From Brevibacterium daeguense (GTDB taxonomy: Bacteria > Actinomycetota > Actinomycetes > Actinomycetales > Brevibacteriaceae), in assembly GCF_021729135.1 (NCBI RefSeq), contig NZ_JAJTWW010000004.1, forward strand, positions 62,001 to 126,000: a stretch of DNA of 64,000 nucleotides, read 5' to 3'. Position 1 is the stretch's first letter, and every line of letters starts with the position of its first letter. Positions 8,279 to 18,789 of the stretch are shown piece after piece. Both the position numbers and the translations under genes were made by a program. The notes beneath the pieces were generated by a model. It was not told the origin of the DNA. It saw nothing but the letters and a program-made list of their open reading frames with translations, and did not search any database.

Positions 8279-9397
8279 ATGAGCACCACTGCAACGACGG
8301 CCGCGCAGAACGCGGTACCGGTGACGAAGGAGATGTCATTCCTCGACCGGTGGCTGGCAGTCTGGATTCTGGCGGCGATGGCCGTCGGTCTGCTGCTGGG
8401 CCGCTTCGTGCCGGGTCTCGACACGGCCCTGGATGCGGTGAAGATCGGCGGGATCTCCGTGCCGATCGCCATCGGCCTGCTGGTCATGATGTACCCGGTG
8501 CTGGCCAAGGTGCGCTACGACGAGATGGATCGGGTGACCGGGGATCGGAAGCTGCTGACGCTGTCGCTGTTCCTCAACTGGATCGTCGGACCGGCGTTCA
8601 TGTTCACGCTGGCCTGGATCTTCCTGCCCGATCTGCCCGAGTTCCGCACCGGCCTGATCATCGTCGGCCTGGCCCGCTGCATCGCAATGGTGTTCATCTG
8701 GAACGATCTGGCCTGCGGCGACCGGGAGGCCGCCGCAGTGCTGGTGGCCATCAACTCCGTGTTCCAGGTCGTGGCGTTCGGTGCGCTGGGCTGGTTCTAC
8801 CTGCAGGTGCTGCCGTCCTGGCTAGGACTGCCGACCACCTCGGCGGACTTCTCGGTGTGGGCGATCGTGGCCTCGGTGCTGGTCTTCCTCGGCATCCCGC
8901 TCCTCGCCGGCTTCCTCACCCGCGTTTTCGGGGAGAAGGCCAAGGGTCGCGAGTGGTACGAGGAGAAGTTCCTGCCGAGGATCGGCCCCTGGGCACTCTA
9001 CGGACTCCTGTTCACCATCGTGCTGCTCTTCGCCATGCAGGGCGAGGCGATCACCTCCCAGCCCCTGGACGTGGCCCGGATGGCGGTGCCGCTGCTGCTG
9101 TACTTCGTTCTGATGTTCGCCCTCAGCCTGTTCGCCTCGAAGGCCGTGGGGCTGAACTACGCGAAGTCGACCAGTGTGGCCTTCACCGCCTCGGGCAACA
9201 ACTTCGAGCTCGCGATCGCGGTGTCGATCGGAGCGTTCGGGATCACTTCCGGGCAGGCGCTGGCCGGTGTGGTCGGCCCGCTCATCGAGGTTCCCGTCCT
9301 CGTCGGACTCGTCTATGTCGCCCTCTGGGTCGGTCCCAAGCTGTTCCCGGGCGACCCGACCCTCCCGAATCGCCGAATTGCAGGAGCGCGCTCATGA
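8279..9397 (+). CDS. acr3: Arsenite efflux permease Acr3
   Basis: 372 residues, about ten membrane segments, the usual Acr3 length. The helix-4 signature [19 protein letters not shown] contains the essential cysteine of the family, and the late [14 protein letters not shown] supplies the conserved Glu. Acr3 exports As(III) through the plasma membrane, driven by proton motive force. The start at 8279 follows GAGGAG. The stop codon overlaps the arsC1 ATG by 4 bp. Regulation by ArsR is expected from the palindrome at 8217-8236. The upstream in-frame extension to 8129 lies in the promoter region and was rejected. Confidence 0.95.
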
Positions 9398-9825
9398 CCC
9401 CCACTGCCGACAGCAAGCCCAGCGTCCTCTTCGTCTGCGTCAAGAACGGCGGCAAGTCCCAGATGGCCGCCGCGCTGCTGCGCCGCCACGCCGGCGACGC
9501 CGTCGAGGTCCACTCGGCCGGCACCAAGCCCGGCAGCTCCCTCAACGGATTGTCCGCCGAAGCGGTCGCCGAGGTCGGAGCCGACATGTCCGAGGATTCG
9601 CCCAAGCCCATCGACCCCGAGCTGCTGCGCCGGGTCGACCAGGTCATCGTCCTCGGCGAGGAGGCCCACGTCGAACCCGTTGACGGTATGCGAGCAGCCA
9701 TCGAGACGTGGACCACCGACGAACCCTCCCACCGCGGCATCGAGGGCATCGAGCGCATGCGGCTGGTGCGCGACGACATCGACGCCCGCGTCCGCGAACT
9801 GCTTCCCGCACTCCTGAACGGCTGA
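9394..9825 (+). CDS. arsC: Arsenate reductase ArsC1 (LMW-phosphatase fold)
   Basis: 143 residues with the catalytic loop [10 protein letters not shown], nucleophile Cys15. It belongs to the low-molecular-weight phosphatase-like arsenate reductases. It is the odd one among the first three copies: the GCGDACPI segment of the other ArsC proteins is absent (the equivalent stretch is VIVLGEEAH), leaving Cys15 as its only cysteine, as expected for a mycothiol-dependent transferase that needs no resolving cysteine. An Asp-Glu-Pro (TTDEPS) occupies the general-acid loop. It is translationally coupled to acr3 by a 4-bp overlap. Confidence 0.88.
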
Positions 9826-9853: not shown

Positions 9854-10285
9854 GTGACCCCTGCACCCGAAACCACCCCCAGCGTCCTGTTCGTCTGCGT
9901 CCACAACGCGGGCCGCTCCCAGATGGCCGCCGGCTACCTCGCCGAGCTGTCCGACGGCCGGATCGAGGTCCGCTCCGCCGGGTCCGAACCCGCGGATCAG
10001 ATCAACCCCGTCGCCGTGCAGGCGATGGCCGAAGAGGGCATCGACATCACCTCGGCGTCCCCGAAGATCCTCACCACCGAGGCGGTGAAAGCCTCCGACG
10101 TCGTCATCACCATGGGCTGCGGCGACGCCTGCCCGATCTTCCCCGGCAAGCGCTATGAGGACTGGGAGCTCGACGATCCGGCCGGCAAGGGGATCGATGC
10201 CATCCGCCCGATCCGCGACGAGATCAAGTCCCGCATCGAGCGGCTGGTGGCTGAACTGCTGCCGGCGTCGACCAGCTCGTCCTGA
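9854..10285 (+). CDS. arsC: Arsenate reductase ArsC2 (mycothiol-type)
   Basis: 143 residues, GTG start 28 bp after arsC1. Catalytic loop CVHNAGRSQM with nucleophile Cys15, then MGCGDACPIFPGKRYEDW and the acid loop ELDDPAG. This is the canonical actinobacterial arsenate-mycothiol transferase/reductase pattern, reducing As(V) to As(III) for export by Acr3. The similarity to ArsC1 is confined to the fold; the loops differ strongly, so these are old paralogues rather than a fresh tandem duplication. Confidence 0.92.
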   Translation: MTPAPETTPSVLFVCVHNAGRSQMAAGYLAELSDGRIEVRSAGSEPADQINPVAVQAMAEEGIDITSASPKILTTEAVKASDVVITMGCGDACPIFPGKRYEDWELDDPAGKGIDAIRPIRDEIKSRIERLVAELLPASTSSS

Positions 10286-11749: not shown

Positions 11750-12379
11750 ATGACCGCCGAAAACCCGCCGCTCGATACCAAAGTCCTGCAGCTCTCCGTC
11801 AGCGACCTCACGCGCAAGTACACGGGCATGTTCTCCGCGGAAACCATCGAGCGCTACGTCTACGAGTCCTACACCACCCTGTCGCGGACCGCGCAGATCC
11901 GTGAGCACTTGGCGATCCTCGCCGAACGGTTCGCGGCCGACCGACTCCGCGCCCTGGCCCTGGCCGAGGGCAAGATCGCGAAGACGGTTCCCCAGGTGCT
12001 GTTCGTCTGCGTCCACAACGTCGGCCGCTCCCAGATCGCGGCAGCACTGCTGGCGCACTATGCGGGAGACAGCGTCGAGGTCCGCTCGGCCGGGTCGCTG
12101 CCCGGATCCGAGGTGCACCCGCTCGTGGTCGACGCGCTGGTCGAGCGCGGCATCGATCTGTCCGGCGCATTCCCCAAGCCGCTGACCGACGACGTCGTCC
12201 GCGCCGCCGACTACGTCATCACCATGGGCTGCGGCGACGCCTGCCCGATCTACCCCGGCAAACGCTACCTGGACTGGGAACTCGACGATCCCGCCGATGA
12301 GACACCGGAACGAGTTCGCGAGATCGTCGACCAGATCGACAGCCGCGTCCACGACCTCTGGACTCAGATCCGGAGCTGA
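11750..12379 (+). CDS. arsC: Arsenate reductase ArsC3 with N-terminal helical domain
   Basis: 209 residues. An N-terminal all-helical bundle (about residues 10-75; YTGMFSAETIERYVYESY) precedes the ArsC domain. Catalytic loop CVHNVGRSQI with Cys87, then MGCGDACPIYPGKRYLDW and the acid loop ELDDPAD, all intact. The extra three-helix domain is known in actinobacterial ArsC proteins; its function is unclear. The start follows GAAAGGA. It is the last gene of the plus-strand ars operon. Its closest visible relative in the window is the divergent copy at 15504-16283, which shares the helical domain. Confidence 0.9.
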   Translation: MTAENPPLDTKVLQLSVSDLTRKYTGMFSAETIERYVYESYTTLSRTAQIREHLAILAERFAADRLRALALAEGKIAKTVPQVLFVCVHNVGRSQIAAALLAHYAGDSVEVRSAGSLPGSEVHPLVVDALVERGIDLSGAFPKPLTDDVVRAADYVITMGCGDACPIYPGKRYLDWELDDPADETPERVREIVDQIDSRVHDLWTQIRS

Positions 12380-12440
12380 GAGCGATCGACCCCAGCCGAC
12401 GAGGCCATCGTGCGAGTGGTCCCGTCAGCGGGGCCGTCGT

Positions 12441-12533: not shown

Positions 12534-13163
12534 ATGTCTGCGCAGTTGCGGTTCGTCCGCGGGCTGCTTGCTGCCGTGATCTCGCTCATCGTCGGCCTGA
12601 TGTTCCACGAGTCGGCCGACGGCGCCGTTCCCGTGCCCGCAGTTGTCGTGTCCCTGGTGATGCTGACCTGGCTGTCGGTGCTGCTGGCCGGTCGCAGGTT
12701 CGGGTACTGGTCGTTGACGGCGATCGTCGCGGCGGCGCAGCTGATGCTCCACTGCACGATGGTGCTGTTCAGCGGTTCTCCGCCGACCCTGCGAGGCCAC
12801 CAGCACGGAGTGAGCCCGGGGGACGCATTGGCTGACGCTCTCGCCTCGTCCGCTGCGGCCGGGCATGTCCACGGGACGGCCGAGGCGACCGCAGCGCATT
12901 CAGCGGCACCTTCAGGGGCCATGGCTCTCGCTCACGTGGCAGCGACCCTGGTCACCGTCCTGGTGCTCAAGCGCGGCGAGGACGCGCTGTTCCGGCTGCT
13001 GGTGCTGATGCTCGGCGCCGGTGTCGTCATCTTCTTCGAACTCGTTCCGATCCCTCAGCCGCCGCGGGTGGCGACGCCTCGGCCTGCACCGCGTCTGACT
13101 GTCACCGATGCGGTGCTCGAGAATTCCTATCGACGCGGGCCGCCCATGTCCTTGGCTGCCTGA
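12534..13163 (+). CDS. Histidine-containing integral membrane protein of copper module
   Basis: 209 residues with about five hydrophobic helices (near 8-25, 32-52, 60-80, 128-147 and 153-172). The loop between helices 3 and 4 contains clustered histidines (GHQHG, GHVHG, AHS), and the tail is proline-rich. I do not recognise a named family. Position directly before a PCu(A)C copper chaperone and a DyP peroxidase, plus the histidines, suggests metal handling at the membrane. The ATG at 12534 is preferred to the GTG at 12528 because AGGAGGT lies at ideal distance. Confidence 0.6.
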   Translation: MSAQLRFVRGLLAAVISLIVGLMFHESADGAVPVPAVVVSLVMLTWLSVLLAGRRFGYWSLTAIVAAAQLMLHCTMVLFSGSPPTLRGHQHGVSPGDALADALASSAAAGHVHGTAEATAAHSAAPSGAMALAHVAATLVTVLVLKRGEDALFRLLVLMLGAGVVIFFELVPIPQPPRVATPRPAPRLTVTDAVLENSYRRGPPMSLAA

Positions 13164-13335
13164 AGACCTTCATCACTCTGCCTGCCGCAGCCGGCTGGGC
13201 CGCAGCCGCTGCTCGCACACCATGCCCGAAGGGCCAGTGAGGCGGCACCGGCGCCAATGGCGACACCGGCCGAGCGGGCACGCGCAGAGAATCCCCCAAT
13301 CGCGAGGCGACTCCTCGCATGCAAAGGACAGACCC

Positions 13336-13890
13336 ATGCGTACTTCTCGACCCCTTTTTCCAGTCATCTCCGCCGGCCTCCTCAGCATCGCGCTGAGCAC
13401 CAGCCTGGCAGCCTGCAGCAGTCCGGCGACTTCACAGGACACCTCCACGCCCGGCAGCACTGTCGCCACGACAGCGAGTGCCGCGCCGCAGCTGACTCTG
13501 ACCGACGGGTGGGTCAAGGCCACCGATGAGGACATGACCTCGATGTTCGGCGTATTGACCAACGGCACTGGTGCCGACATCGTGCTGGAGTCCGCAACCA
13601 GCGAGTCGGCCGGCATGGTCGAGCTGCACGAGACCACCACCGACCCCTCTGGTTCCTCGACGATGCGTCAGGTCGAGGGCGGTTTCACGGTTCCCGCAGG
13701 CGGGCACCTCGCGCTCGAGCCAGGCGGCGACCACATCATGCTGATGGAGCTGCGAGAGCCGATCGAACCGGGCGGCGAGGTCGCCGTCGAGCTGGTGACG
13801 TCGACCGGAGAAACGATCCCGGTGACCGTGGTCGCCAAGGACTACTCCGGCGCTCAGGAGGACTACGACATGCATGAATCGGAGCACTGA
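13336..13890 (+). CDS. PCu(A)C periplasmic-type copper chaperone lipoprotein
   Basis: 184 residues. A signal peptide ends in a lipobox (SLAAC, Cys27), so the protein is predicted to be membrane-anchored outside the cell. The PCu(A)C domain shows the Met/His copper ligands in the family order: MVELHE, a Met in STMRQ, a His in GGHLALEP and DHIMLM. These chaperones carry Cu(I). In Streptomyces the homologous ECuC works with Sco and the DyP peroxidase DtpA; here the DyP gene follows immediately, overlapping or abutting the stop codon. No Sco gene is present. The start follows AAAGGA. A 172-bp gap separates it from the membrane protein. Confidence 0.88.
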   Translation: MRTSRPLFPVISAGLLSIALSTSLAACSSPATSQDTSTPGSTVATTASAAPQLTLTDGWVKATDEDMTSMFGVLTNGTGADIVLESATSESAGMVELHETTTDPSGSSTMRQVEGGFTVPAGGHLALEPGGDHIMLMELREPIEPGGEVAVELVTSTGETIPVTVVAKDYSGAQEDYDMHESEH

Positions 13891-13891
13891 C

Positions 13892-15169
13892 ATGCCGACG
13901 GTGAATCGCCGCGACCTGCTCGGTGCCTCGGTCATCGGATTGGGCGCAGGGTTGGCCGGAATGGGGGCTGGCGCGCTCATCGAGCGCGAGACGTCCGCCC
14001 CGCCGGCGGCTGGGCCGGACACCGCCGGCCTCAACGGCTCCCGACTGGAGCCGTTCCACGGCAGGCATCAGGCCGGGGTGGAGACCAGCCCGCAGACCCA
14101 CGGCCTGTTCCTGTCCCTGTCCCTGCGACCCGAAACCGACCGCAGCGGTGTGACCCGGCTGCTCCGGCTGCTGACCGAGGACGCCGCACGTCTGACGCAG
14201 GGTCGGGCGCCGCTGGCGGATCCGGAACCGGAGCTGGCCGAGGACCCGGCTCGACTGACCATCACCTTCGGCTTCGGACGCGACCTGGTCGCGCGGGCCG
14301 GCAGGCGGCACGTGCCGGACTGGCTGGCGCCGCTGCCTCAGTTCGGCATCGACAGGCTGCGACCGGAGCTGTGCCGCGGGGACCTGCTGCTGCAAGTCTG
14401 CTCGGACGACCCCACGACGGTCGCCCACGCCGCGCGGATGCTGCTCAAGGACGCCGAGGCGTTCACCCGGCCGGCATGGCAGAAGGCCGGATTCCGGCGG
14501 GCCTATGGGTCCGATCCCGCCGGCACCACGGCACGCAACCTGTTCGGCCAGGTCGACGGCACCTCCAACCCGGCCGCCGGATCGGCTGATTTCGCCCGCC
14601 TCGTGTGGGGCGAGACCGGCAGCGGGCAGCAGTTCGGCCCGCGCGGCGCACCGCCGACGGACTTGGCAACCGACTACCCGGATTGGCTGGTCGGCGGCAC
14701 CTCACTGGTGCTGCGCGACATCGCGATGAACCTGGACACCTGGGACGAGGTCGATCGGCCCGGCCGGGAGTTCTCCGTCGGTCGGTCCCTGTCCACCGGG
14801 GCACCGCTGACCGGTGAGCACGAATTCGACATCCCTGATCTGTCGGCAACGACAGAGGCGGGGCTGAAGGTGATCTCGCCGGTGTCACACGTGGCCAGAT
14901 CGCGGAACGTCGACGAGCCGGCCGAACAGATCCACCGGCGCGTCTACAACTACCACTCGATCCCGATCACAGGCGAGGTGTCGGAAGGCGGAATGATGTT
15001 CGCCTCGTATCAGGCCAGCATCCACCGACAGTTCCTGCCGATCCAGCGCCGCCTGGACGAAGCCGACCTCCTCAACGCCTGGACGTCCCCGATCGGGTCA
15101 ACGGTATGGGCGATTCCGCCGGGTTGCGATGCCGGGGACTACATCGGGTCCCGATTGCTTGAGGCGTGA
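13892..15169 (+). CDS. Tat-exported DyP-type heme peroxidase (EfeB/DtpA-like)
   Basis: 425 residues. The N-terminus has a twin-arginine signal, NRRDLLGASVIGLGAG (Arg6-Arg7). The DyP signature GQVDG is at residues 219-223 with the catalytic Asp222; the distal Arg region is GTSLVLRDIAM and the late HVARSRNVDEP is characteristic. DyP enzymes oxidise bulky substrates with peroxide; secreted members also act in iron (EfeB) or copper-dependent (DtpA) processes. The upstream copper chaperone favours the DtpA-like role. The start at 13892 puts the RR motif at the usual place; an ATG at 13874 would overlap the chaperone gene. Confidence 0.9.
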   Translation: MPTVNRRDLLGASVIGLGAGLAGMGAGALIERETSAPPAAGPDTAGLNGSRLEPFHGRHQAGVETSPQTHGLFLSLSLRPETDRSGVTRLLRLLTEDAARLTQGRAPLADPEPELAEDPARLTITFGFGRDLVARAGRRHVPDWLAPLPQFGIDRLRPELCRGDLLLQVCSDDPTTVAHAARMLLKDAEAFTRPAWQKAGFRRAYGSDPAGTTARNLFGQVDGTSNPAAGSADFARLVWGETGSGQQFGPRGAPPTDLATDYPDWLVGGTSLVLRDIAMNLDTWDEVDRPGREFSVGRSLSTGAPLTGEHEFDIPDLSATTEAGLKVISPVSHVARSRNVDEPAEQIHRRVYNYHSIPITGEVSEGGMMFASYQASIHRQFLPIQRRLDEADLLNAWTSPIGSTVWAIPPGCDAGDYIGSRLLEA

Positions 15170-15204
15170 CATCGCAGGTCCTCGCGGGACCTGAACCCGA
15201 CTCC

Positions 15205-15279
15205 CTCCCGCCCGGCAACCTCCTGCCCGGCAACCTCCTGCCCGGCAACCTCCCGCCAAGCAACCTCCCGTCCGGCACG
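15205..15279. repeat. Five 15-bp tandem repeats in an intergenic gap
   Basis: Five consecutive 15-bp units (consensus CTCCYGCCCGGCAAC) lie between the DyP gene and arsC4; units 2 and 3 are identical and units 4 and 5 are diverged. The rest of the 334-bp gap (15170-15503) holds the arsC4 promoter and no gene that I can support. Confidence 0.9.
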
Positions 15280-15435
15280 CACGCTGCCCAGTGTGCGTGC
15301 CGGACCTGCTCGCTCCCCACCACCCGACCGCGGTGATGACCGCACCGTCGGCGACACGCTCCCTGAATCCGGCGCGATCGGTATGCGGGAATACACAATA
15401 TGAATAACAGGTGAACGGCAATCAACCAACCGGTA

Positions 15436-15464
15436 TTGCATAGGTGGAATTCCGGCTCTAGATT
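15436..15464 (+). promoter_or_regulatory. arsC4 promoter
   Basis: TTGCAT (15436-15441) and TAGATT (15459-15464) are spaced by 17 bp, which would start transcription near 15471, just before the GGGAGG ribosome binding site of arsC4. The surrounding A/T-rich stretch stands out from its GC-rich neighbours. Confidence 0.55.
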
Positions 15465-15503
15465 GAGGTGACGAGCAACAGCCACGCTCGGGAGGGAACC
15501 GCC

Positions 15504-16283
15504 ATGACTGAGACTCAGCAGACACGCGCCCACGCGCTGCGCGCGCTGCACGCGAAGCATCCAGCACATCCACTGCACGCCCGCCGAGCACCCGACCCGG
15601 ACACGGCGGTCACGCCCCTGAACCTGCATGTGCTGGAGCAGGTCGTCGAATCCCTCAGCCGCGAGTACGAGGGGATGTTCTCCCCGGAGACCGTCGAGCG
15701 CTACGTCTTCGAGTCCTACAGCTCCCTGGCACGGACGGCCAAGGTCGACACATTCCTCGGGATCCTCACGGAGCACTTCGCGAACGATCGACTGCGGGCA
15801 CTGGCGAAGTCCCAGGGCAAGATCGCCAAGCTGGTGCCCCACGTGCTCTTCGTGTGCGCTCCGAACATCGGCCGCTCACAGATGGCAGCCGCGCTGCTGG
15901 CCCACGCCGCTGGCGATGCCGTCGAGGTGCGCTCGGCCGGCATCACCCCCGGCACTCGCGTCCACCCGCTCACCGCCGAGGTGCTCCGGGAGCGCGGAGT
16001 CGAGCTCACCAAGTCCTATCCCAAGCCGCTCACCGACGATATCGTGCGGGCCACCGATTACGTGGTGACGATCGGCCACGACAACGCCTGCCCCATCTAT
16101 CCCGATAAGCGCTACCTGGACTGGGACATCGCGGGGCCTGATGTCGAGCACCTGGACGACGTCCGGATCGAGGAGGTCCGCGGGATCGTGGACCAGATCG
16201 AGGCGCATGTGCACCAGCTGTGGGCCGAGATCAGGGAGCAGAGTCGAGCGACCGAGGACGAGCAGGCGCGCACAGCCGTCTGA
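15504..16283 (+). CDS. Divergent ArsC4 with altered active site
   Basis: 259 residues: an N-terminal extension, the helical domain (YEGMFSPETVERYVFESY) also present in ArsC3, and an ArsC domain. The catalytic loop is CAPNIGRSQM with Cys118 kept. Two other conserved elements differ: GCGDACPIYPGKRY has become GHDNACPIYPDKRY (first Cys lost), and the acid loop ELDDPAD has become DIAGPDV, so the usual Asp before Pro is Gly. It has its own promoter and is not in the main ars operon. It may have a different substrate, act as a sensor, or be a weak reductase. The ATG at 15504 is chosen for its GGGAGG; a GTG at 15468 is possible. Confidence 0.8.
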   Translation: MTETQQTRAHALRALHAKHPAHPLHARRAPDPDTAVTPLNLHVLEQVVESLSREYEGMFSPETVERYVFESYSSLARTAKVDTFLGILTEHFANDRLRALAKSQGKIAKLVPHVLFVCAPNIGRSQMAAALLAHAAGDAVEVRSAGITPGTRVHPLTAEVLRERGVELTKSYPKPLTDDIVRATDYVVTIGHDNACPIYPDKRYLDWDIAGPDVEHLDDVRIEEVRGIVDQIEAHVHQLWAEIREQSRATEDEQARTAV

Positions 16284-16305: not shown

Positions 16306-16863
16306 TCACTCGTCTTCCGCGGTGCGGGTATGGATCCGCGCGCCCTCTCCGTTGAAGATGCTCAGCACCTCGGCCGACCGCGAGCCCGACGCGAAGATCG
16401 CATGCGGCGTGCGCGTGTCGAACTCGGCTGCCTCGCCCGGCGTCAGGATCAGGTCCTGATCGCCGAGCAGCAGGCGGAGCCTGCCGGTGAGCACGTACAG
16501 CCACTCGAACCCGTCATGCACCTGCAGCTCCGGCACCGTCGACACCGGCGGGTACGAGATCTTGAACGTGTGCACCGGTGACCCGACTGGGGCCAGCGGT
16601 GTGATGATCATGCCGCCGCGCTGGACGGTGGGACGGCGGACACGGGGGTCGGGCACCTCCGGACGCACCAGGTCGTCGATCCGGATGCCGAGCTGACGCG
16701 TCAGCGGCAGGAGCAGCTCCAGGCTCGCCTGTCGTTTCCCGGATTCCAGTCGCGACACCGTGCTCACCGACACCCCCGCCCGCCGCGCGAGGCCTTCGAG
16801 CGTCCAGCCGCGCGCCTTGCGCATCGCCCGCAGGCGGGGCCCCAGGTGCTTGAGCTCGTCCAC
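16306..16863 (-). CDS. XRE-family regulator with cupin sensor domain
   Basis: 185 residues. An N-terminal helix-turn-helix (LEGLARRAGVSVSTVSRLES, about residues 20-40) is followed by a cupin barrel with EWLYVLTGRLRLLLG and DTRTPHAIFA. This architecture is common in regulators that respond to small molecules or redox state. The GTG start at 16863 is chosen because AAAGGA precedes it and the frame upstream runs into the divergent gene. It is transcribed divergently from the reductase-methyltransferase fusion across a 72-bp gap that contains three TTTGC half-sites, so it probably controls that gene and itself. Confidence 0.85.
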   Translation of the reverse strand: MDELKHLGPRLRAMRKARGWTLEGLARRAGVSVSTVSRLESGKRQASLELLLPLTRQLGIRIDDLVRPEVPDPRVRRPTVQRGGMIITPLAPVGSPVHTFKISYPPVSTVPELQVHDGFEWLYVLTGRLRLLLGDQDLILTPGEAAEFDTRTPHAIFASGSRSAEVLSIFNGEGARIHTRTAEDE

Positions 16864-16876
16864 CGCGCCACCATCC

Positions 16877-16903
16877 TTTTGCTGATTCTGCAAAACTGTT
16901 TGC
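16877..16903. promoter_or_regulatory. Three TTTGC/GCAAA half-sites between divergent genes
   Basis: TTTTGC (16877-16882) and GCAAAA (16890-16895) form a perfect inverted repeat with a 7-bp spacer; GCAAA (16890-16894) and TTTGC (16899-16903) form a second one with a 4-bp spacer. The middle half-site is shared. This is the likely binding site of the XRE-cupin regulator. Confidence 0.55.
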
Positions 16904-16935
16904 CGAACCGTCCTTCTCGCGCACACACTACACGC

Positions 16936-18789
16936 ATGAACACCCCGCAGAACACCCTTCACACCACCTCGAACCACTCCAGTGGCTGGGAGGCCGCCGT
17001 CTGGGACGCGATCGTGATCGGCGGCGGCCCGGCAGGACTGTCGGCCGCTCTCATGCTCGGACGAGCTCGTCGCCGCACCCTCGTCATCGACGCGGGCAGC
17101 CCGCGCAACCGCTTCGCAGAGCACATGCACGGAGTCCTCGGCAACGAGGGCACTCCCCCGTCCGAGCTCCTCAGCCGCGGGCGCACCGAGGCCGGAGCCT
17201 ACGGAGTCGAGTTCCTCGGCGCCCGCGTCCAGCGGGTGGACGAGTCCGGTCGGGTGGACGAGCACAGTGGGGATGCCGAACGCTCGGGCCGCCACGACGC
17301 CCACGACGCACGCGGGCAGGCGACCCTCGACGGCACTGCCCTGATCACCACCGACGTCGGCCGGCTGCGGGCGCGCGCCGTCATCGTGGCGACAGGCGCC
17401 CGCGATGAGCTGCCGGCCATCCCCGGCCTGGCCGAGCGCTGGGGCACGACCGTGCTCCACTGTCCCTACTGCCACGGCTGGGAAGTCCGCGACCGGCGCC
17501 TCGGCGTGCTCGTGACCTCGCCGCACGTGCTCCACCTCGCCGAGCTCATCCGCCAGTGGAGCGCCCAGGTCACCGTGTTCACGGCCCCGATCGGCCCGCT
17601 GGACCCCGAGGTGTCCGCTCGGCTGCGATCCCGCGGCATCACCCTGGTCGACGAGCCGGTGAAGGAAGTGCTCGGCGAGGGAACGACGATCGAGGCGGTC
17701 CGACTGGCCGACGGCGGCCAGATCCCGATCGAGGTGATCTTCACCGGAGGACGGCTGCGTCCGCAGGACGAGTTCCTGGCGCACCTGAACCTGGCACGGA
17801 ACGAGAGCCCACTGGGTTCGTTCCTCGCTGTGGACATGTCCGGGAGGACGAGCGCGAAGCACATCTGGGCGATCGGCAATGTCGTGAATCCGACCGCCTC
17901 TGTGCCGATGTCGATCGGGGCCGGCGCCCTCACCGGCGCAGCGGTGAACGGCGCGCTCGTCGCCGAGGAGTTCGATGCGGCGGTGGGCAGTGCGGCGAGC
18001 ACCGGCAGCGCAGGCAGCCCAGGGAGTGCAGGCAGGGGTGGCAGGGGTGGCAGGGGTGGCAGGGGTGGCAGGGGAGGCAAGGGTGGCAGGGGAGGCCGCA
18101 TGAGCAGAGGTGACGGCGGAATGAGGGGAACCGAGGGCGGCACCGATCCCGCTGAGTTCTGGGAGCAGCACTACGCCGGCGAGGATGCCGTCTGGTCGGG
18201 CAGGCCCAATCGGGTGCTCGTCGACGTCGTCTCCGGGCTCCGCCCGGGCCGGGCACTGGACCTGGGCAGCGGCGAAGGGGCGGATGCGATCTGGCTTGCC
18301 ACCCGCGGCTGGGAGGTGACGGGAGTCGACATCTCCGCGACTGCCGCCGGTCACGCGACCGCGGCTGCCCGGGAGGCCGACGTCGAGGCTCGGCTCCGCT
18401 TCGTCGTGGCCGACCTCAGCCGGAATGACCAGGAGCAGAGCACCGAGGGGCCCTTCGACCTCGTGACGGCCAGCTTCTTCCAGTCGCCGGTCGCCCTGGA
18501 GCGCATCCGGATCCTGCGCCGTGTGGCCGCCCGAGTGGCGGCGGGCGGACACCTGCTCATCACCTCGCACGCCGCGCCTCCCCCGTGGACCTCGGGCCTC
18601 GCTGAGCACGATCACGGCGAGGGCAGGGGCCCGGTCTTCCTCCGACCGGAGGAGGAGGTCGCCGCACTCGACCTGGATCCCGCTGCCTGGTCGGTCGAGA
18701 TCTGCGAGATCCGCGAGCGCGACGCGACCGGCCCGGACGGGCAGACGGGCAGGCTCGAGGACTCCGTGGTGCTGCTGCGCAGGCTCTGA
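16936..18789 (+). CDS. Fusion of thioredoxin-reductase-like flavoprotein and class I SAM methyltransferase
   Basis: 617 residues. The first part (to about 360) is a TrxR-like FAD/NAD(P) protein: IVIGGGPAGLSAALMLGRAR, then the redox pair CPYC (Cys176, Cys179), and a C-terminal FAD segment HIWAIGNVVNP. A Gly/Arg-rich linker encoded by 9-bp repeats (about 366-386) joins it to a class I methyltransferase with motif I LDLGSGEGADAIWLATRG at about 441. The methyltransferase half starts FWEQHYAGEDAVWSGRPN, which resembles TehB/thiopurine-type enzymes; it has a single cysteine, so it is not an ArsM arsenite methyltransferase. The combination suggests reduction and methylation of one substrate, perhaps a metalloid or thiol, but this is inference. 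It ends 4 bp before the convergent LCP gene. Confidence 0.82.
   Translation: MNTPQNTLHTTSNHSSGWEAAVWDAIVIGGGPAGLSAALMLGRARRRTLVIDAGSPRNRFAEHMHGVLGNEGTPPSELLSRGRTEAGAYGVEFLGARVQRVDESGRVDEHSGDAERSGRHDAHDARGQATLDGTALITTDVGRLRARAVIVATGARDELPAIPGLAERWGTTVLHCPYCHGWEVRDRRLGVLVTSPHVLHLAELIRQWSAQVTVFTAPIGPLDPEVSARLRSRGITLVDEPVKEVLGEGTTIEAVRLADGGQIPIEVIFTGGRLRPQDEFLAHLNLARNESPLGSFLAVDMSGRTSAKHIWAIGNVVNPTASVPMSIGAGALTGAAVNGALVAEEFDAAVGSAASTGSAGSPGSAGRGGRGGRGGRGGRGGKGGRGGRMSRGDGGMRGTEGGTDPAEFWEQHYAGEDAVWSGRPNRVLVDVVSGLRPGRALDLGSGEGADAIWLATRGWEVTGVDISATAAGHATAAAREADVEARLRFVVADLSRNDQEQSTEGPFDLVTASFFQSPVALERIRILRRVAARVAAGGHLLITSHAAPPPWTSGLAEHDHGEGRGPVFLRPEEEVAALDLDPAAWSVEICEIRERDATGPDGQTGRLEDSVVLLRRL
18031..18093 (+). 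repeat. Seven 9-bp repeats encoding the GGR linker
   Basis: Seven contiguous 9-bp units (consensus GGCAGGGGT) encode a Gly-Gly-Arg-type linker between the reductase and methyltransferase domains. The first four units are identical, so copy number may vary between strains. Confidence 0.92.

Follow-up and report, generated by a model that had tools for sequence, protein, structure and literature searches.

Does the fourth arsC gene in an arsenic resistance region of Brevibacterium daeguense still encode an arsenate reductase? The window, that is, the whole stretch of 64,000 nucleotides analyzed here, contains four arsC genes (the names arsR, acr3, arsO, and LCP, used below for other genes, were assigned by reading of the translations alone):

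9394..9825, forward strand: arsC1, single-domain, of the CVKNGGKSQ type without relay cysteines, resembling the mycothiol class
9854..10285, forward strand: arsC2, single-domain, with GCGDAC
11750..12379, forward strand: arsC3, intact two-domain paralog, with GCGDAC and DDP
15504..16283, forward strand: arsC4 coding sequence, 259 amino acids, PF21234 and PF01451 both above the curated cut-offs

The original prediction was that ArsC4 has lost conserved active-site residues and may be a repurposed ArsC. ArsC4 belongs by descent to the two-domain ArsC family, and the residues tested set it apart from standard thioredoxin-coupled reductases. Probably it either serves another purpose or is being lost.

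Protein layout and known arsenate reductases

The arsC4 gene starts with ATG, preceded by the purine-rich GGGAGGG. The following segments were distinguished within it:

15504..15611, forward strand: N-terminal extension of 36 residues, five histidines within the first 27 residues, low-confidence in the model
15633..15806, forward strand: three-helix dimerisation domain (PF21234 / NF046112), residues 44-101
15855..15881, forward strand: P-loop CAPNIGRSQ, residues 118-126, nucleophile Cys118 kept, CX5RS pocket
16068..16094, forward strand: relay loop TIGHDNACP, residues 189-197, His192 where the first relay cysteine would be, Cys196 kept
16122..16139, forward strand: acid loop W207-D-I-A-G-P212, Gly211 in place of the Asp before Pro
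16140..16169, forward strand: region with a five-residue insertion beside the acid loop, absent from the ArsC3 proteins of the genus

The N-terminal domain bears the NCBIfam name three-helix bundle dimerisation domain, and the second domain is the low-molecular-weight phosphatase domain PF01451. Both termini are extended relative to ArsC3, the later start of ArsC3 in the window and in congeners being an apparent one, with start codons assigned by reading only. Alignments differ in placing the insertion at residues 218-222 or at 213-217. The AlphaFold2 model of ArsC4, built from five sequences, has a mean pLDDT of 77.7, and the predicted fold gives no sign of damage as far as such a model goes.

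The closest solved relative is Cg_ArsC1' from Corynebacterium glutamicum (PDB 3t38; sequence E-value 5e-70; for the model, Z 25.0 and rmsd 2.0 over 199 residues). Both proteins have the two-domain layout, the fold, and the CX5RS pocket, whereas in ArsC4 neither the first relay cysteine nor the acid-loop Asp is present; ArsC4 also carries the insertion after the acid loop, the His-rich N-terminal extension, and a longer C-terminus. Villadangos et al. 2011 reportedly found that the helical bundle of Cg_ArsC1' contacts the active site of the partner subunit. Cg_ArsC1' uses the thioredoxin pathway (PMC4360819, in its available part). In the ArsC proteins of S. aureus and B. subtilis, as described in the accessible portion of PMC6193951, Cys10 attacks arsenate and then forms a disulfide with Cys82, which is attacked by Cys89 before thioredoxin regenerates the enzyme.

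The S. aureus pI258 ArsC (PDB 1jf8, 1lju, and others) resembles ArsC4 in the nucleophile, the second relay cysteine, and the fold (Z 17.5 for 1jf8), whereas ArsC4 has nothing equivalent to its Cys82 or acid Asp (mapping via ArsC2). Cg_ArsC2 (PDB 3rh0), like ArsC4, has no cysteine at the Cys82 position and shares the PTP fold (Z 17.2), but differs in having another P-loop, no N-terminal domain, no cysteine at position 196, and Glu before the acid-loop Pro. The mycothiol-dependent ArsC1/C2 of Corynebacterium are single-cysteine enzymes.

Of the features of the thioredoxin-coupled type (pI258 and Cg_ArsC1'), ArsC4 has the CX5R(S) P-loop cysteine and the second relay Cys196, but neither the first relay cysteine (the Cys82 equivalent) nor the acid-loop Asp before Pro. 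It lacks the CVxNGGKSQ P-loop of the mycothiol-dependent type and is not single-domain, and of the low-molecular-weight protein tyrosine phosphatase type it has the CX5R(S/T) P-loop without the general-acid Asp before Pro. The TIGR02691 model (cut-off 174.3) gives ArsC4 51.2, ArsC3 59.8, and ArsC2 88.8 bits; its cut-off does not serve this subfamily.

Loss of the relay cysteine and the acid-loop aspartate

For the alignment, 193 frames were collected, rows without the [FLIYV][VIL]C...[RK]SQ motif or with fewer than 80 residues ahead of it were excluded, and identical rows were reduced to one. With a profile of the N-terminal domain, of which one training row (L008_m482) is a wrong frame, hmmsearch listed 104 rows, 91 of them with a score above 15. 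Manual curation then took out eight of the 91: in six single-domain frames the upstream part was taken for an out-of-frame reading of a different gene, and two rows were truncated by their locus. The final alignment has 83 rows. Since the motif was a condition for inclusion, the near-invariance of C118, R124, S125, and Q126 is partly by construction, while C192, C196, and D211 played no part in the selection. All 83 rows entered through their relatedness to ArsC4 or ArsC3, and remote ArsC lineages are therefore under-sampled.

Cys10, Cys82, and Cys89 of S. aureus ArsC align to Cys118, residue 192, and Cys196 of ArsC4, respectively. The predicted retention of the nucleophile agrees with the P-loop CAPNIGRSQ, and the two predicted losses are confirmed: the relay loop TMGCGDACP of ArsC3 reads TIGHDNACP in ArsC4, turning GCGDAC into GHDNAC, and the acid loop LDWELDDP reads LDWDIAGP, with Gly211 in place of the Asp. 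Both C192 and D211 are present in 82/82 other aligned two-domain homologs and missing in ArsC4 alone; they are kept even in five rows with end branches longer than that of ArsC4 (0.85-1.36). That the relay loop reflects a sequencing error was considered and rejected, as there are several in-frame substitutions (ggc cac gac aac gcc tgc in arsC4, ggc tgc ggc gac gcc tgc in arsC3) and the frame is open throughout.

Of 60 columns conserved at 85% or more in the 83-row alignment, ArsC4 retains 51, the nine losses being V119A, S147I, A184T, M190I, C192H, G193D, D194N, G201D, and D211G. Six of the nine fall within residues 189-215, a stretch with 16/60 conserved columns (hypergeometric P 0.008, a modest value for a loop whose limits were set after the finding had been read). 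Variants of the test give likewise modest P values: 0.012 if the four columns that the row filter fixes are omitted, 0.016 if the loop limits are drawn more tightly, and 0.034 if the test is confined to the catalytic domain. The same test on nine of the other 82 rows found no clustering in 189-215, whether in six rows with 4-8 losses (P 0.19 to 1) or in three ArsC3 rows of the genus with 0-2 losses. All nine widely conserved columns of the dimerisation domain are kept. The P-loop carries V119A and Pro120, a proline found there in 1/83 rows.

At columns unanimous in five ArsC3 rows of the genus, ArsC4 keeps 45/54 of the widely conserved ones and 52/74 of the others, a difference short of significance (P 0.10); outside 189-215, the counts are 36/39 and 48/68, and the difference is significant (P 0.013). 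Raw ArsC4-ArsC3 identity in 189-215 (59.3%) is about equal to that in the N-terminal domain (60.3%), which counts against a loop-specific reading. What sets the stretch apart is the agreement of five ArsC3 orthologs with one another there (78-100%).

Origin of arsC4

Both domains and the tree position place ArsC4 among the two-domain actinobacterial ArsC proteins (PF21234 plus PF01451). In the tree of 83 rows, it falls inside the seven-row ArsC3 clade of the genus (support 96/97), together with ArsC3 of the window and of the congeners G036, G029, G010, and G027, which, unlike ArsC4, keep GCGDAC and the Asp-Pro acid loop and are encoded in or beside an arsR/acr3 set. Its end branch of 0.72 is the longest of the clade, the other six being 0.012-0.31. 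ArsC4 is 59% identical to ArsC3 of the window at the protein level and 40% to ArsC1, and the arsC4 and arsC3 DNA is about 71% identical over 607 aligned positions. ArsC4 is a rapidly evolving duplicate of the Cg_ArsC1'-type reductase that belongs to the genus itself, represented in the window by ArsC3. The DNA similarity does not end with the arsC3 stop codon and runs on for some 12 bases (about 16242-16253 against 12380-12391), so the C-terminal tail of ArsC4 may come from former downstream sequence by stop loss; this is a hint only, as the similarity may be due to chance.

Arrival of arsC4 from another genus is disfavored by its placement inside the ArsC3 clade, and acquisition from an unsampled congener is possible. 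A tree holding ArsC4 and the window's ArsC3 together was not rejected (p-AU 0.42), nor was the slightly better tree with the six other clade members together and ArsC4 outside (p-AU 0.63).

Search for relatives with the same substitutions

A check proposed with the original prediction was whether the same substitutions recur as a clade among close homologs. Protein searches of the other 59 family, 395 order, and 393 class genomes found no ortholog. These samples (60, 396, and 394 genomes including its own) overlap and hold one genome per species; up to six candidates were scored per genome in the order and class searches, while in the family search the best places were read as loci, which covers a minority of the lower-scoring single-domain matches. 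Among the candidates scored, the best matches outside the own genome reach at most 62% identity in the family, 59% in the order, and 54% in the class. The DNA pattern for G-H-[GD]-[ND]-A-C-P matched in nine of 396 phylum genomes, the sole ArsC match being in the window's own genome, and the peptide pattern was found at three loci in GTDB species genomes. Viral contigs contained no relative, and all 194 plasmid records, judged by overall identity, were below 60%.

Selection or decay

Substitutions unique to this sequence had been regarded in advance as a sign of decay, and the sequence is indeed unique in the sets searched, which points that way; the open frame and the dN/dS values fit poorly with decay ever since the duplication. 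Decay would mean that arsC4 is redundant and at an early stage of erosion: three other arsC genes suffice, selection is relaxed, and the active site degrades before any stop codon or frameshift has appeared. We regard this as rather unlikely, though it ranks second among the explanations. In its favor are the occurrence of arsC4 in one genome only among those searched, the longest end branch of the clade, and an own-branch dN/dS of about 0.50 for ArsC4, compared with 0.34 for ArsC3 (calculated by hand from three points, L008 being the third gene).

The NG86 estimates for arsC4 against arsC3 are dN 0.334 and dS 0.770, a dS at which the method is rough. Pairwise dN/dS ratios, computed by hand, are 0.19-0.44 for arsC4 against five ArsC3 genes of the genus and 0.08-0.35 among those five. 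In neutral simulations, which ignore indels, 0.45 changes per site left 1.0% of 500 runs stop-free starting from arsC4 and 2.2% starting from arsC3, whereas about 70% of frames stay open at 0.02 changes per site. Since neutral drift along the whole branch would rarely leave the frame open, decay ever since the duplication is unlikely; it fits poorly with the open frame, with dN/dS of 0.19-0.44, and with the concentration of conserved-column losses in the relay and acid loops rather than scattered, none of the nine conserved dimer-domain columns being lost. The GC3 of arsC4 (86.2%) is also like that of its neighbors (80.7-91.7% in 11 other window genes). Small recent drift is what the frame would survive, and recent decay is possible.

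Possible functions of ArsC4

An altered function fits better than decay ever since the duplication, given a retained pocket and dimer domain, changed relay and acid loops, and an open frame. We suggest, tentatively but ahead of the other readings, that ArsC4 may be a dimer-forming, oxyanion-binding ArsC paralog, that is, a pseudoenzyme unable to run the thioredoxin-coupled cascade. A duplicate of a two-domain Cg_ArsC1'-type reductase would have given up the thioredoxin-coupled reaction, while the fold, the dimer domain, and the oxyanion pocket stayed. Cys118 and the P-loop could still bind arsenate or phosphate, and the first Cys-arsenate adduct might form at Cys118; with no cysteine at 192, the Cys10-Cys82-Cys89 cascade would not be able to proceed, and with Asp211 gone, any phosphatase chemistry should be weak. 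The simplest way for such an oxyanion-binding pseudoenzyme to dimerise would be with ArsC3 via the three-helix domain; a low-turnover arsenate binder is a similarly speculative alternative. It is doubtful, although conceivable, that ArsC4 serves as a regulatory pseudo-subunit in mixed dimers with ArsC3, held together by this domain, tuning arsenate reduction or reporting arsenate or phosphate status, a role that the His-rich tail and His192 could make metal-dependent. Several observations count against the pseudoenzyme reading: the sets searched contain one such sequence and no independent lineage maintaining the changed loops, the pairwise dN/dS of arsC4 runs above that among the ArsC3 genes of the genus, widely conserved columns as a whole are retained no better at a significant level than the rest, and the P values for clustering are modest. 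The predicted repurposing, favored by the lost relay and acid residues beside a kept pocket and dimer domain, is possible and unproven; in the sets searched, no clade shares the changes.

Alternatively, ArsC4 could still reduce arsenate with an outside thiol, for instance mycothiol with mycoredoxin, or with Cys196 directly, instead of Cys192. The nucleophile, the P-loop, and Cys196 are all retained, the window also contains a full set of ars genes, and a precedent is provided by the mycothiol-dependent ArsC1/C2 of Corynebacterium, in which an arseno-mycothiol adduct is formed and reduced by mycoredoxin (PMC4360819, again for the part available). We consider this improbable and place it third: CAPNIGRSQ is unlike the P-loop of that class (CVKNGGKSQ or CVGNGGKSQ), ArsC4 is closer to ArsC3 than to the window's ArsC1 (see above), and the residue before the acid-loop Pro, Gly in ArsC4, is Glu in ArsC1 and in 3rh0.

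Least probable is that ArsC4 has become a phosphatase again, similar to the low-molecular-weight PTPs, or acts on another oxyanion. Among the forms of repurposing, the proposed reduction of another oxyanion has the least in its favor, and no observation supports it: the resolving cysteine of the known cascade is gone. The PTP-fold pocket is intact, Asp208 and Asp213 stand on either side of the lost acid, and some ArsC enzymes have a side phosphatase activity independent of the redox cascade (PMC8949286, from the portion accessible). But Gly replaces the acid-loop Asp before Pro, and no candidate substrate for a phosphatase stood out nearby. In the open library, we found no paper on ArsC as a pseudoenzyme and none joining arsenate reductase, mycothiol, and the three-helix bundle.

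If ArsC4 is functional, it shows that a thioredoxin-coupled arsenate reductase can be retained after the loss of its relay, its role then most likely being that of a subunit for binding or regulation. Counting arsC genes would in that case overestimate the capacity to reduce arsenate. A true pseudo-subunit would be a pseudoenzyme partner within an arsenate reductase; if decaying, ArsC4 is an ordinary redundant duplicate. The label "arsenate reductase ArsC" can include a protein without the relay cysteine.

Genomic neighborhood and upstream region

Several arsC genes per ars region are common in Actinobacteria (PMC6514093, according to the part available). The order arsR / acr3-arsC1-arsC2-arsO-arsC3 is repeated in genomes G036, G029, and G027, and G010 has the same ars order without a close arsC1 and without any arsO match. 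No arsC4 was found near the ars sets of these four congeners in the 20-kb stretches read. G027 has two near-identical ars regions (L080 and L081), each with a divergent second two-domain ArsC.

The interval between arsC3 and arsC4 (12543-15169) contains one gene without an assigned family, a PCu(A)C copper chaperone, and a DyP peroxidase. The PCu(A)C-DyP pair was found in 7/7 other congener loci read with the DyP query, five of which also have the gene without an assigned family, and no arsC4 match was present in the 0.7-1.5 kb downstream of these seven DyP loci. To the right of arsC4, an XRE-cupin regulator (16306-16944, reverse strand) is divergent from a gene (16999-18789) that encodes a pyridine-nucleotide-disulfide oxidoreductase joined to a SAM methyltransferase via a Gly/Arg-rich low-complexity linker. 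The XRE-cupin, oxidoreductase-methyltransferase, and LCP-like genes to the right of arsC4 adjoin in 2/5 congeners (L119 and L120, chosen for their closely spaced matches).

The DyP peroxidase gene and arsC4 are separated by a gap of 334 bp with two features:

15270..15305, forward strand: 17-base inverted repeat forming a strong hairpin, -33.2 kcal/mol, z -6.2
15395..15469, forward strand: A/T-rich stretch, 42-46% G+C, upstream of arsC4

The hairpin is possibly the end of the upstream transcript; it is absent from the list of a terminator scan that requires a T run. The A/T-rich stretch is a possible promoter region of arsC4, and no sigma-70-type match was found in 15170-15520. Separate transcription from an A/T-rich promoter, as originally proposed, is a plausible prediction, with the gap, the hairpin, and the base composition in line with it. 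Cg_ArsC1' is said, after Villadangos et al. 2011, to have a low constitutive promoter of its own. Finally, an imperfect tandem repeat of 15 bases, CCCGGCAACCTCCTG-like, with four copies in register, follows the DyP stop codon (15196-15277).
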